Both the position numbers and the translations under genes were made by a program. This document shows positions 10,064 through 15,849 of a stretch of 64,000 nt of DNA, in pieces. The stretch comes from Paenibacillaceae bacterium (GTDB taxonomy: Bacteria; Bacillota; Bacilli; Paenibacillales; NBRC-103111): NCBI GenBank assembly GCA_029256185.1, contig JAQSYI010000037.1, positions 1 to 64,000 of the forward strand, given 5' to 3'. The number at the start of each line of letters is the position of its first letter. The stretch's first letter is position 1. The notes beneath the pieces were generated by a model that ran no database searches, was not told the DNA's origin, and saw nothing but the letters and a program-made list of their open reading frames with translations.

Positions 10064-10873
10064 ATGCGGATCGAATTGTGGCCAGAAGGTGCGCCGTATG
10101 CCCACGGCAATGATAAAGAGGGTCTTCCGGCGATTACCCCGTATCTTGCCGAAGGGGCGGAGGGACCGGTTCCCGCTGTAGTGGTGCTGCCGGGGGGAGG
10201 GTACCATACCCGTGCTCCCCATGAAGGCGAGCCTATCGCCAAATGGTTGAATACGTTGGGAATCAGCGCCTTTGTGCTGGACTACCGGGTTGCGCCGTAC
10301 AAGCATCCGGTGCCCCTGAACGATGCCCAACGGGCCCTGAGGCATGTACGCTCCCAGGCAGAGGCTTGGAAGGTGGACCCTTCCCGGCTGGGGATACTGG
10401 GTTTTTCGGCGGGAGGCCATCTTGCGTCTACAGCCGGAACCCATTACGACAGGGGAGACAGCGCTTCCGCGGACCCGGTGGAGCGGTTTAGCTGCCGTCC
10501 CGATTTTATGGTGCTGTGTTATCCCGTCATCAGTCTGGGGGAATTCAGGCACGACGGCTCCCGGGTGAATCTTGTGGGTGAGGACGCGACGGAGGAGCTT
10601 GTACGGCTGCTGTCCAATGAGCTTCAGGTTACGGAGGATACCCCGCCTTCCTTCATCTGGCATACCTCGGACGACCCTGCTGTTCCGGTAGAGAACGCGC
10701 TGATGTTCGCCAGTGCGCTCAGCCGCAATAAGGTGCAATTCGAGCTTCATTCCTACATGACGGGACGTCACGGACTTGGGCTGGCTGCAGACCACCCCGA
10801 GGCTCAGACATGGCCTGATCTGTGCGCACGCTGGCTGAAGCGGCTGGGTCTGGTCCCCGCTTCTCATGAATGA
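10064..10873 (+). CDS. Alpha/beta hydrolase, acetylesterase/BD-FAE-type
   Basis: 269 residues from the ATG at 10064, which follows GGAGG; the frame open from 10019 would run through the promoter. The oxyanion motif PGGGYH, nucleophile elbow GFSAGG (Ser about 123), acid in TSDDPAVP and His in GRHGLG form a standard triad. Relatives are acetyl-xylan or feruloyl esterase-like intracellular enzymes (Aes/BD-FAE). No signal peptide is seen, so it acts inside the cell. Its stop overlaps the start of the next gene, so the two are co-translated, although a metabolic link to 5-oxoproline is not obvious. Confidence 0.88.
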   Translation: MRIELWPEGAPYAHGNDKEGLPAITPYLAEGAEGPVPAVVVLPGGGYHTRAPHEGEPIAKWLNTLGISAFVLDYRVAPYKHPVPLNDAQRALRHVRSQAEAWKVDPSRLGILGFSAGGHLASTAGTHYDRGDSASADPVERFSCRPDFMVLCYPVISLGEFRHDGSRVNLVGEDATEELVRLLSNELQVTEDTPPSFIWHTSDDPAVPVENALMFASALSRNKVQFELHSYMTGRHGLGLAADHPEAQTWPDLCARWLKRLGLVPASHE

Positions 10874-12902
10874 GAAGGCAGGCAAGGAGCCGGAAGCGGA
10901 GTTCAGTCCTCTTGGCGACACGGGAGTGATCGTCCGCTATGCGGGCTCCGGTGAGCCTGGGGATTATCCGGGGCGAATGGAGCAATTTGCCCGGGCAGTC
11001 CAAGCATCCCCGTTTCCCGGTTTGGTGGAGGTTGCCTCCGGTGAGGAACGGGCCGCTGTATTCTATGATGTTCATGAGTTATACAGGGGATTGGACAAGC
11101 TGGAGCGGATGTTTCCAATTCTGTCCGCGGCCGCAGCCGCAGCGGGCTCTGAGCCGCAAAGTCTGCAGGAAGCGGTCTGCCTGGTGCTTCAGCAGATCTG
11201 GCTCGGCTCGGACTCCGGCTTAAGCGCAGAGGTGCGGCTGGTGGAAATCCCCGTTGTTTACGGCGGAAAGGCTGGTCCCGATCTGGAAGAAGCCGCAGCG
11301 CTTGCCGGAGTGAGCGCGGAGGAACTGGTACAGCTTCACAGCGGTGGGGAATACAGGGTGCGGATGATCGGATTCGTACCCGGTTTCCCGTATTTGGCCG
11401 GACTCCCCCAGCAGTTGGTTATTCCGCGACTTGATACCCCACGGGTATCGGTTCCATCAGGCTCAGTTGCTTTGGGTGGAGGAATGACGGGCATTTATCC
11501 GCTGGAGGTGCCCGGAGGCTGGAGGGTGATCGGAAGAACGCCCCTGGCTCTCTTCAGGCCCGGCGAAGCGGAGCCCTGCCTGCTCCGGATAAGCGACCGG
11601 GTCAGATTCGTTCCGGTGAAGGAGAAGGATGCGGGCAGGTCCGTAACAGCGAGGGACAGAGATGTAGGCGAAGCGGGCAGGTCCGTATCAACCAGGGACA
11701 GAGGAGCAGGGGAGAAAAGCGGATCCGAATCAGCGATGGACAGAGATATAGGTGAAGCGGGCAGGTCCGTACCCTTGAAGGGCGGTAATGCTGACGAAAC
11801 GGCGTCCTGTGCCTCTGCTGCAGACAGCGCGGGGAAAAGCGCCGTTTCTATACACGCTGTGGAGGCTCCCGGGGTCAGGGTGCTGGCGCCGGGGCTGGCG
11901 TCGGCTGTCCAGGATCTGGGGCGGCTGGGCTGGCGCGCCTCCGGTGTGCCGGTGGGCGGCGCGGCCGACCCGCTGGCGCTGCGCTTGGCCAATCTGCTGG
12001 TGGGCAACTCCGAAGATGCGGCGGCGCTTGAGTTGACTCTCTTGGGACCGACTCTGGAGTTTACCGCAGAGTCGGTGGTTGCGCTGTGCGGCGCGCCCTT
12101 CGAGGCGTGGCTGGACGGAGCGGCGCTTGAGCCGCTCCGTCCCTATTACGCCCCGAAGGGCGCGGTGCTTGCGGTGCGGCGGGCGGTCCGCGGCTGCCGC
12201 GGGGTGTTGGCCATAGCGGGCGGCGTGGCGGTGCCCGCTGTGTTGGGCAGCCGCAGCACATATGTGCGCGGGCGGCTTGGGGGGGCAGCAGGCCGGCCGC
12301 TGGCGGCGGACGACCTGCTGCCCTTGGGGCCGCTCCCGCCGCAGGCTGAGCGGCTGCTCTCGCTGCTGCGCAGCAGGAGCGGCGGAGCGGGGCCTGCCCG
12401 CGGCCCGTTCGCCGCAGCGGCGGCGCTGTGCCCCCCGCTGCCGGAAGCCGCCGCCGGAGCACAGCCCGCTGTGCTCCGCGCCGTACCGGGCCGCGAAGCG
12501 CCTGGCTTCGCCCCCGCTGCGGCCGCCCGCTTCTGGAGCGAACCGTACACGGTTCGCCCCGAAGCGGACCGCATGGGCGCCCGGCTCTCCGGCCCGCCGC
12601 TGCCTGCAGCCCCGGACACCGCCTCCATTCCATCGGAGGCGGTGGTCCCCGGCACGGTCCAGGTGCCGCCGGACGGGCAGCCAATTGTGCTGCTTCCTGA
12701 TTGCGGCACCACCGGCGGCTACCCGCGCATCGCCCATGTAGCGGCGGTGGATCTGCCGCTGCTGGGGCAGCTTGGGCCAGGCGCCCGACTCCGCTTCCGG
12801 GAGATCGGCGTGGCCGAGGCCGAGCGGCTGTTTCTGGAGCGGGAGACGGCCCTTGCCCGTTTCCGGGCAGCTCTGCGGCAATGGCTGGGCTCACCGGATT
12901 AA
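10866..12902 (+). CDS. Fused 5-oxoprolinase subunits B and C (PxpB-PxpC, KipI-KipA)
   Basis: The 678 residues contain an N-terminal PxpB/KipI domain (about 1-245, with IGFVPGFPYLAGLP and IYPLEVPGGWRVIGRTP) and a C-terminal PxpC/KipA domain (about 330-678, with SAVQDLGRLGWRASGVP and LRLANLLVGN). Between them lies a linker (about 250-325) made of an imperfect repeat like AGRSVxxRDRDxGE. With PxpA the pair cleaves 5-oxoproline to glutamate using ATP. The subunits are separate proteins in Bacillus. The start overlaps the esterase stop and has a weak ribosome binding site. The second half has very high GC. Confidence 0.92.
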   Translation: MNEKAGKEPEAEFSPLGDTGVIVRYAGSGEPGDYPGRMEQFARAVQASPFPGLVEVASGEERAAVFYDVHELYRGLDKLERMFPILSAAAAAAGSEPQSLQEAVCLVLQQIWLGSDSGLSAEVRLVEIPVVYGGKAGPDLEEAAALAGVSAEELVQLHSGGEYRVRMIGFVPGFPYLAGLPQQLVIPRLDTPRVSVPSGSVALGGGMTGIYPLEVPGGWRVIGRTPLALFRPGEAEPCLLRISDRVRFVPVKEKDAGRSVTARDRDVGEAGRSVSTRDRGAGEKSGSESAMDRDIGEAGRSVPLKGGNADETASCASAADSAGKSAVSIHAVEAPGVRVLAPGLASAVQDLGRLGWRASGVPVGGAADPLALRLANLLVGNSEDAAALELTLLGPTLEFTAESVVALCGAPFEAWLDGAALEPLRPYYAPKGAVLAVRRAVRGCRGVLAIAGGVAVPAVLGSRSTYVRGRLGGAAGRPLAADDLLPLGPLPPQAERLLSLLRSRSGGAGPARGPFAAAAALCPPLPEAAAGAQPAVLRAVPGREAPGFAPAAAARFWSEPYTVRPEADRMGARLSGPPLPAAPDTASIPSEAVVPGTVQVPPDGQPIVLLPDCGTTGGYPRIAHVAAVDLPLLGQLGPGARLRFREIGVAEAERLFLERETALARFRAALRQWLGSPD

Positions 12903-13049
12903 GAGGAGCTTGGAGCTGTTTTACCGGGTGTATCCGCATTGCCATCAGTATTTTCTCGTACACACCTTGGCATTGATATTACGGCAGCAGGCATAGCGGC
13001 AATTAAACAGGGATGTTTCCTAACGGTTAGGGTTAAGGAGGACTTACGC

Positions 13050-13823
13050 GTGAATGCTTATGCGGCCAAAGGGCGAATCGATATGAACTGTGACTTGGGA
13101 GAAGGATACGGCGCTTATACAATCGGCCGGGATTCGGAGCTCCTGCCTTATGTAACCTCGGCCAACATTGCCTGCGGCTTCCACGCCGGAGATTCGGCGG
13201 TGATGAGACACACCGTCAGGCTTTGTCTGGAGCAAGAGGTTCAGATAGGCGCTCACCCCGGCCTGCCTGATCTTCAGGGCTTCGGCCGACGAGAGCTTGC
13301 GATTACTCCGGATGAGGCTTATGAGCTGACCCTTTACCAGATCGGAGCGCTTCACGCTTTTCTCCGCGCTGAAGGGGAGCGGCTTCACCATGTGAAGCCT
13401 CATGGTGCGCTTTACAATATGGCTGCGCGGGAGACGAAGCTGGCGCGGGCCATCGCGGCGGCCGTGCACCGCTTCGATCCCTCTCTCAAGCTGTACGGTC
13501 TTTCGGGAAGCGAGTTGATCAAGGCGGGGCAGCACTTCGGCCTTGAAACGGTGTCCGAGGTGTTCGCCGACCGCCATTACCGTTCCGACGGCTCTCTTGC
13601 TCCCCGGTCGGAGGAGGGGGCAGTCATTGCAAGCGAGGCGGTGGCGGTGGCACAGGTGCTGCAGATGGTATCCACAGGCACCGTAACCACCAAGGACAGC
13701 TCCATCATAATGCTTGAGGCAGAGACGGTGTGCATCCATGGGGACAGCCCTCATGCCGCAACACTGGCAGCGGCTCTCCGCAGCGCTTTGGAGGCAGCAA
13801 GGATCCGGGTCTCGGCTCCTTGA
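13050..13823 (+). CDS. pxpA: 5-oxoprolinase subunit A (PxpA, LamB/YcsF family)
   Basis: 257 residues from the GTG at 13050, which follows AAGGAGG at 13034-13040; the frame open from 12939 would add 37 residues unlike the family. Family motifs [38 protein letters not shown] and VKPHGALYN are present. It forms the 5-oxoprolinase complex with the fused PxpBC upstream. The 147-base gap to PxpBC has no terminator, so they are probably one transcript. No transporter gene, common in such operons, is present. Confidence 0.93.
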
Positions 13824-14635: not shown

Positions 14636-14900
14636 GCGGAAAAAATTTCCGCTATCAGAAGATTTTTCGAGAATCTCCGAAATTTAACGGAAAAAATTTC
14701 CGTTAACTCCCTCAAAACCAGGTGAATATGCCTGTTTCGGGGAGTTCAGGAGGAGATAACGGAAAAAATTTCCGCTAAACGAACGAGTTAAGGAAGAATC
14801 CGCATGATAACGGAAAAAATTTCCGTTAACTCCCTCAAAACCAGGTGAACATGCCTGTTTCGGGGAGTTCAGGAGGAGATAACGGAAAAAATTTCTGCTA
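14636..14900. repeat. Cluster of AACGGAAAAAATTTCCGTT palindromes with a 123-bp direct repeat
   Basis: Five palindromes of the form GCGGAAAAAATTTCCGC or AACGGAAAAAATTTCCGTT start near 14637, 14686, 14758, 14809 and 14881. Two of the intervals are copies of each other: 14685-14777 and 14808-14900 are nearly identical and offset by 123 bases. A related half site occurs near 16449. No gene is seen in this stretch. Confidence 0.85.
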
Positions 14901-15163: not shown

Positions 15164-15193
15164 TTGAAGTACATACCAGCAGTATTATATAAT
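15164..15193 (+). promoter_or_regulatory. Sigma-A promoter of the CD3324-family operon
   Basis: TTGAAG (15164-15169), an 18-base spacer, and a consensus TATAAT (15188-15193). It precedes the leader peptide at 15253 and the terminator at 15358. Confidence 0.65.
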
Positions 15194-15252
15194 GGTAACG
15201 ATCATACGCATTCCATGCGTGCGGTACATAAAATGAGAGGAGAGTGGCGAAG

Positions 15253-15303
15253 ATGATTAACGGTTTTGTGCGCACAATGAAGCAAGAGGTGTCTGTCAAC
15301 TGA
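15253..15303 (+). CDS. Putative 16-residue leader peptide
   Basis: MINGFVRTMKQEVSVN, with GAGAGGAGAG seven or more bases upstream. It lies between a good promoter and an intrinsic terminator, the usual place for a leader peptide. No amino acid is strongly over-represented, so classical amino-acid attenuation is not obvious. Coding is inferred from position and ribosome binding site only. Confidence 0.45.
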   Translation: MINGFVRTMKQEVSVN

Positions 15304-15317
15304 ATAGCTTGGCATCT

Positions 15318-15383
15318 ATAACCATCCCCCTGACAGGATATAGGACTGCAGCTCAGGCACGATGTGGTTATCGTGTTTTTTTT
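15318..15383 (+). promoter_or_regulatory. Putative attenuator: antiterminator and terminator pair
   Basis: CACGAT (15358-15363) and ATCGTG (15370-15375) around GTGGTT form a stem followed by eight Ts (15376-15383), a typical intrinsic terminator. Upstream ATAACCA (15318-15324) can pair with TGGTTAT (15365-15371), which would break that stem. The terminator lies before the structural genes, so readthrough must be controlled or partial. It does not match a riboswitch class that I recognise. Confidence 0.55.
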
Positions 15384-15437
15384 ATTGCCTTTTTTCGAAA
15401 AAATTACAAAATAAACCAAACTAAGGAGGTGTGTCAA

Positions 15438-15569
15438 ATGATAAAGCAGCTTGTGGCAGTATCGAAGCAAGGCGCCCGGCGTAACACCCGCTCAATCATT
15501 GAAATGACAATTAACCAGGAGGTATTATCAGATGAGTTACAAAAACGGAAGGGACGTTCTTCCCCCTAG
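15438..15569 (+). CDS. Small 43-residue hypothetical protein
   Basis: MIKQLVAVSKQGARRNTRSI is followed by a charged C-terminal part. The ATG has an excellent ribosome binding site (AAGGAGG, 15423-15429). The 3' end overlaps the CD3324-family gene by 38 bases in another frame, so it may serve for translational coupling. No family is recognised. It could alternatively be a leader peptide. Confidence 0.5.
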   Translation: MIKQLVAVSKQGARRNTRSIIEMTINQEVLSDELQKRKGRSSP

Positions 15570-15822
15570 CTTACTTAAACAATTGCAAGACTATATACAA
15601 GGCGAGATCATCTACATCCCCAAAAAGGAACAGAAGCGGGCCGGTTGGGGCGAGAACAACGGCACGCGGGTCATTATCGAGCAGCGCAACAAGGAGATCT
15701 ACGGCCTCTACAAGAGCGGCTCCACCATCTTCGAGCTGATCCAGATCTATCACCTGTCGGAGGACAGCATCCGCAAAATCATTGTGAAAACCAGGGACCT
15801 GGTCCTAAATGGTGCCCACTAG
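15532..15822 (+). CDS. CD3324-family small helix-turn-helix protein
   Basis: The 96-residue protein begins MSYKNGRDVLPPSLLKQLQ and contains GEIIYIPKKEQKRAGWGE, the hallmark of the CD3324 family common in Paenibacillus and Clostridium. The C-terminal half (about 50-90, LYKSGSTIFELIQIYHLSED) looks like a helix-turn-helix of the Mor/resolvase type, suggesting DNA binding. The ATG follows CCAGGAGG. Targets are unknown. It is the last gene of a short operon behind the attenuator. Confidence 0.85.
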   Translation: MSYKNGRDVLPPSLLKQLQDYIQGEIIYIPKKEQKRAGWGENNGTRVIIEQRNKEIYGLYKSGSTIFELIQIYHLSEDSIRKIIVKTRDLVLNGAH

Positions 15823-15849
15823 AGCAGAGACTTCGGTCTCTGCTCTTTT
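15821..15849 (+). terminator. Terminator after the CD3324-family gene
   Basis: AGAGCAGAGAC and GTCTCTGCTCT are perfect 11-bp arms around TTCG, followed by TTTCTT. It starts at the stop codon. Confidence 0.85.

Follow-up and report, generated by a model that had tools for sequence, protein, structure and literature searches.

A bacterial gene that stands behind both a good promoter and an intrinsic terminator raises the question of how, and in response to what, it is expressed. Such a gene, encoding a protein of the CD3324 family, lies in the stretch of Paenibacillaceae DNA analyzed here, whose full 64,000 nt we call the window. A preliminary description of the window had noted a promoter, a leader peptide with its ribosome binding site and a terminator in front of this gene, and had proposed an attenuator-like leader in which the RNA adopts one of two exclusive folds. 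We asked which of these elements are conserved among relatives, which pairings covary, and which mode of control they point to.

Anatomy and distribution of the leader

The elements of the leader are listed in Table 1.

Table 1. Features of the CD3324 leader region, with positions in the window.
Feature	Positions	Strand	Basis
Sigma-A promoter, TTGAAG-18-TATAAT	15164-15193	+	consensus match 10/12
uORF1 Shine-Dalgarno (SD), 5' arm of P1 (anti-antiterminator)	15237-15247	+	covariation of P1
uORF1, leader peptide MINGFVRTMKQEVSVN followed by stop, 16 aa	15253-15303	+	ATG at 15253, TGA at 15303
Conserved ACTGAATA motif containing the uORF1 stop	15299-15306	+	alignment of leaders
ATAACCA, candidate antiterminator strand	15318-15324	+	clade-limited support
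Box, 3' arm of P1, anti-SD mimic	15322-15331	+	CCATCCCCCT in the window, CCGTCACCT in most relatives
CCTGA, candidate inner part of the antiterminator (partner TCAGG, 15353-15357)	15329-15333	+	folding
TCAGG and intrinsic terminator CACGAT-loop-ATCGTG-T8	15353-15383	+	stem sequence almost invariant in family
TGGTTAT, partner of ATAACCA, in terminator loop and 3' arm	15365-15371	+	complementarity
uORF2, 43-aa frame overlapping the CD3324 start	15438-15569	+	RBS AAGGAGGTG
CD3324-family gene, Mor-like helix-turn-helix protein, 96 aa	15532-15822	+	NF040785, PF08765, AlphaFold
Intrinsic terminator 3' of the CD3324 gene; gene stands alone	15821-15846	+	

The promoter, the leader ORF and the terminator of the preliminary description were all recovered, with GAGGAGAG as the ribosome binding site of uORF1. 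Judged by folding alone, the terminator CACGAT-GTGGTT-ATCGTG-T8 (15358-15383) reaches -10.3 kcal/mol (z -3.9), a value equalled by none of 200 shuffles. The leader of the window as a whole shows no surplus stability over shuffled sequences (z +1.05), and its overall folding energy was for that reason not used as evidence. Upstream of the leader, the near-palindrome CGGAAAAAATTTCCG occurs five times, once with a mismatch, in the intergenic DNA at 14637-14897, where chance would predict no copy. Further upstream, a long ORF of 678 aa (10866-13823) presumably encodes a fused PxpB/PxpC (KipI/KipA) protein, and a LamB/YcsF (PxpA) gene lies 3' of it.

The CD3324 gene family is present in 133 of 149 relatives, and a DNA search with the leader of the window matched 46 of the 149, mainly through the block 15354-15395. 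For comparison, the upstream regions of about 90 CD3324 homologs were retrieved. In the window's family, almost every member has the same order of elements, namely promoter, SD, short uORF, ACTGAATA with the stop codon, NNATAACCGTCACCTGA, a variable hairpin, CAGGCACGAT, a loop, ATCGTG, a tract of 7-8 T, uORF2 and CD3324. A covariance search across CD3324 loci had been suggested in the preliminary description, and our model of the leader part 3' of the uORF (R1) found matches in 82 of 149 Paenibacillales genomes (E 8e-15 to 4e-3), with a single copy in each and, in every case compared, at the position of the CD3324 ortholog. Carriers include Paenibacillus sp. YN15, the nearest named one (protein identity 91%), P. 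alginolyticus, P. elgii, P. chitinolyticus and many more; degenerate leaders occur in genomes of one genus (g8). When R1 was used to look for other genes under the same leader, the one copy per genome gave no evidence for a regulon. Three loci (L073, L075 and L076) have an apparent tandem leader, in which an extra uORF ending in MEVASA within a hairpin, together with a strong terminator, precedes the main leader.

In an Rfam search of the window, no cis-regulator family exceeded its gathering score for the leader; weak matches to sbrA (on the downstream terminator), mir-363 and sR44 were at chance level and were discarded. RNAalifold, applied to the region 3' of the uORF, found the terminator alone with almost no covariation, because the terminator sequence is frozen. 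The literature searched yielded no paper on the CD3324 family and, as the preliminary description had supposed, no account of its regulation. The leader is a new family of translated leader RNA in front of an uncharacterized regulator family.

A near-consensus promoter (9-11 of 12 positions) lies 33-72 nt 5' of the uORF ATG in 23 of 25 leaders, and the top candidates in the interval between terminator and gene score 6-9 of 12; none comparable to the upstream promoter was found there. The distance from the T-tract to the start of uORF2 is short, with a minimum of 23 nt, a median of 65 nt and at most 65 nt in half of the leaders. Judged from these scores and distances, expression of CD3324 must pass the terminator. 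Transcription starting downstream of the terminator, which the preliminary description had named as a finding that would speak against attenuation, is not indicated by the promoter scores, and the attenuator-like leader it proposed is well supported by conservation and by a promoter that lies solely upstream.

The leader could also be read as a stand-alone small RNA, perhaps with a dual function through its 16-aa peptide, which ends at its own terminator and has CD3324 as a mere neighbor that receives basal readthrough. We regard this as unlikely: a terminator stem that is near-invariant instead of drifting, the strong default termination that is predicted and the one copy per genome would all suit a small RNA, but the leader co-occurs with the CD3324 ortholog, CD3324 has no other promoter, and the different uORF leaders of distant homologs (see below) are positioned to control the terminator or the SD of the gene. 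In the R1 search, two genomes (G011 and G051) had neither the ortholog nor the leader, and two others (G004 and G025) had remote CD3324 homologs only and no leader.

RNA pairings and translation of the leader

The SD region of the uORF can pair with a box that lies 3' of the uORF stop codon; we call this helix P1. Over 36 distinct leaders, cognate arms pair more stably than swapped partners (-11.7 vs -10.7 kcal/mol, p = 0.00015), and the difference is still significant with one leader per genus (p = 0.001). Most leaders carry AGGTGAAAGG/CCGTCACCT, and compensatory changes give GAGGGGAGATGG/CCATCCCCC in L033 and AGGAG/CTCCT in L082. Folding predicts that P1 is formed in most free leaders, and its 3' arm overlaps the candidate antiterminator strand at CCA (15322-15324). 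On these alignments, P1, and not ATAACCA/TGGTTAT, appears as the best-supported element of an RNA switch, and as the best covariation of the leader it ties the switch to ribosome binding.

This tie speaks against a terminator controlled by a protein or a ligand, in which the uORF would be secondary and CD3324 might bind its own leader or the leader might be a riboswitch. In favor of such control, the stem GGCACGAT/ATCGTG is conserved in sequence and so are the unpaired-looking motifs ACTGAATA and ACATA; with the best covariation in the SD:box pairing and no riboswitch match in Rfam, we give this explanation roughly one chance in ten.

The two exclusive folds of the preliminary description had been based on ATAACCA upstream and TGGTTAT within the terminator. 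ATAACC:GGTTAT and CCTGA:TCAGG can combine into a nested antiterminator in which CACGAT is unpaired. Over the 36 leaders, ATAACC:GGTTAT is better than swapped partners (p = 0.0006), being strong in the clade of the window and in some other genera, and absent or weak in several genera; a changed pair of this type, ATATCCG/CGGGTAT, occurs in L061. With one leader per genus, the cognate strands of the nested antiterminator show no advantage over swapped ones (p = 0.24), and despite the lower p value over all 36 leaders we rejected ATAACCA/TGGTTAT as a family-wide switch. What stands of the earlier proposal is a possible pairing that is near-isoenergetic with the terminator in the clade of the window: antiterminator and terminator are predicted at -13.5 vs -15.1 kcal/mol in the window, a gap of 1.6 kcal/mol, and at -14.5 vs -13.8 kcal/mol in its nearest relative. 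ATAACCA/TGGTTAT together with CCTGA/TCAGG is thus a plausible antiterminator for this clade.

For most Paenibacillus leaders, equilibrium folding gives the terminator as the dominant structure, and masking the SD does not change this. The antiterminator would therefore have to win kinetically, during transcription, and this is the weakest link of the switch proposed below. Such dominance is also what a constitutive partial terminator would give, one that only keeps CD3324 at a low basal level and for which the pairings are incidental, but the conservation of P1 with compensatory change and the conservation of the uORF make this reading improbable.

A uORF is present in every leader examined and has 12-23 codons in the tabulated set. 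Its N-terminal part varies freely. At position -5 from the stop, 61 of the 64 distinct peptides have E or G, in most cases with V or F as the next residue. The stop codon occurs in three registers relative to the ACTGAATA motif, and the E or G at -5 tracks the stop codon, not the nucleotide motif, which is evidence that translation near the end of the uORF is under selection. No recognized drug-stalling motif was found in the uORF of the window. The conserved residues are close to the stop, and a single ribosome stalled there would leave the SD uncovered. An amino-acid starvation attenuator of the trp/ilv type, whose uORF senses the charging of certain tRNAs, shares the order of uORF and terminator, but it is very unlikely given uORFs that are highly variable except for (E/G)(V/F) by the stop, the lack of any run of one repeated regulatory codon and a controlled gene that is a putative regulator and not biosynthetic.

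Downstream of the terminator, 57 of 71 leaders have an equivalent of uORF2 with a good SD, running out of frame over the CD3324 start. Among the rows displayed, its end nearly always lies 38 nt within the CD3324 gene. Part of this constancy reflects conservation of the CD3324 coding sequence itself, but uORF2 also retains its start, SD and frame, which supports the translational coupling to CD3324 that had been suggested earlier from the 43-residue overlapping frame of the window.

The CD3324 protein and its relatives in other Bacillota

The product of the gene scores 108.5 bits against NCBIfam NF040785 (cut-off 65) and 31.4 bits against the Mor family PF08765 (gathering cut-off 24.9). Its AlphaFold model (pLDDT 82) has a confident C-terminal helix-turn-helix, which over residues 40-93 resembles the bacteriophage Mu activators Mor (Z 6.3) and C (Z 7.5) with 22-26% identity in Foldseek and VIA, at Z values similar to those of other helix-turn-helix proteins in the same list. 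Unlike this part, the N-terminal half had no structural match by either tool. A sequence search of the PDB with a protein alignment (A2, whose second row is a composite of two proteins of the family f11) returned no full-length relative, and a phage match, sought for one member of the family, was not found. The modeled structure is consistent with DNA binding. The genome of the window has a second CD3324-family gene (L191, G000:C82:151250-152500), which lacks this leader; the ORF directly 5' of it shows weak similarity to the nucleotidyltransferase that other CD3324 genes have on their 3' side.

Most CD3324 genes of other Bacillota also have uORF leaders, of other designs. In another Bacillota class, folding with a free SD gives P1 plus terminator in L169, L171, L284 and L285 (terminator probability 0.66-1.0), and masking the SD gives the antiterminator (probability 0.85-1.0); four of the five leaders of this class thus switch in the computation, and L181 shows no switch. 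The uORF of L171 starts with MSFIFVISVIR and contains IFVI, which we take to be the motif of the ErmC leader peptide.

Family members in Bacillus relatives have a highly conserved translation attenuator, with GCAAAGCC in a uORF encoding ...HAKP..., followed by CTTTGCATG and by GGCTTTGC, which leads into an SD-sequestering stem. It is found at L286-L291, L294-L297, L299, L308, L311 and L162, mostly in front of CD3324-FusB gene pairs, and GGCGAT/ATCGCC shows covariation with GGCAAT/ATTGCC and GGCGTA/TACGCC in related loci. Among about 60 such loci, the gene directly 3' of CD3324 is a FusB-type gene for an EF-G-binding protein in 13, an ABC-F gene in 2, a nucleotidyltransferase-domain gene in 4 (L301, L303, L307 and L310) and an rRNA-methyltransferase-like gene in 1 (L292). 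For FusB, ABC-F and the methyltransferase, the matches hold at the family level and score under the curated NCBIfam cut-offs of named members; the FusB-type protein is above the Pfam cut-offs for EF-G-binding domains. The nucleotidyltransferase-domain and methyltransferase-like genes are possible further resistance-type partners.

A further leader type is found in other Paenibacillales families, mostly f11 (L117, L118, L165, L298, L304, L115, L113 and L120), and consists of a 10-aa uORF (MISVYEVVSV or alike), a strong hairpin whose loop contains the uORF stop codon, and then a GC-rich terminator; no antiterminator was seen when the MISVYEVVSV leaders of the f11 clade were folded.

Proposed mechanism and comparison with known leaders

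We consider it probable that this leader attenuates transcription of the gene for the solitary, Mor-like CD3324 regulator in a uORF-dependent way, and that readthrough is induced by ribosome stalling in a vmlR- and WhiB7-like manner. By default, the free SD of the uORF and the box would form P1, which acts as an anti-antiterminator by occupying the antiterminator strand, and RNA polymerase would halt at the CACGAT/ATCGTG-T8 terminator. Ribosomes held on the uORF would cover the SD and block P1, either because the leading ribosome stalls and another waits behind it at the start site, or because an initiation complex is stalled. The freed box region could then pair in the antiterminator ATAACC:GGTTAT plus CCTGA:TCAGG, with the CACGAT 5' arm in an internal loop, and transcription would continue into uORF2 and CD3324. 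Slowed translation would be the likely signal, with ribosome-targeting antibiotics as one possible cause, and the CD3324 product would then tune the transcription of resistance or recovery genes. In the family of the window the CD3324 gene is solitary, and the link to antibiotics comes only from the neighborhoods of its homologs.

More tentatively, and with somewhat less than even confidence, CD3324 may be a Bacillota-wide counterpart of WhiB7: a group of Mor-like regulators behind uORF attenuators that sense stalled ribosomes, built in several independent leader designs and controlling ribosome-rescue and antibiotic-protection genes of the FusB and ABC-F type. In such a scheme, transcription attenuation would be used in Paenibacillus and in the further Bacillota class, and translation attenuation in the relatives of Bacillus. 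If the proposed control of CD3324 is right, it would give a widespread family of small putative regulators a mode of regulation and a testable role, and would define new families of translated leader RNAs without a match in Rfam. It would also suggest that Bacillota such as Paenibacillus and the Bacillus relatives own a dedicated stalling-induced regulator comparable to WhiB7, with a connection to intrinsic resistance against ribosome-targeting drugs.

By its anatomy, the leader resembles those of vmlR, whiB7 and fusB. In the B. subtilis vmlR leader, a ribosome stalled on the uORF (MIN) prevents the anti-antiterminator (PMC9226507). Like it, the leader of the window combines a uORF, an anti-antiterminator, a candidate antiterminator and a terminator in front of a gene that would serve under translation stress; we also count as shared that the vmlR uORF sits inside the anti-antiterminator helix and that its antiterminator has an apical hairpin. 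The vmlR leader differs in its 3-codon uORF and in preceding a gene that directly encodes an ABC-F resistance protein, whereas leaders of the window's type have a uORF of 12-23 codons, use the SD itself as an arm of P1 and precede the gene of a putative regulator. In this last respect they are closer to the actinobacterial whiB7/wblC leaders, in which a uORF and an attenuator likewise precede the gene of a transcription factor (putative for CD3324) and which are induced by stalling on the uORF (PMC13236596), as we propose by analogy for CD3324; WhiB7 belongs to a protein family unrelated to the Mor-like CD3324. The fusB gene of pUB101 is controlled by translational attenuation (PMC12008383): there, as would be the case here, translation of a leader senses a translation inhibitor, and FusB-type genes adjoin CD3324 in other Bacilli, but the fusB attenuator acts on the SD of fusB and not on a terminator, and the CD3324 gene of the window has no adjoining FusB gene.
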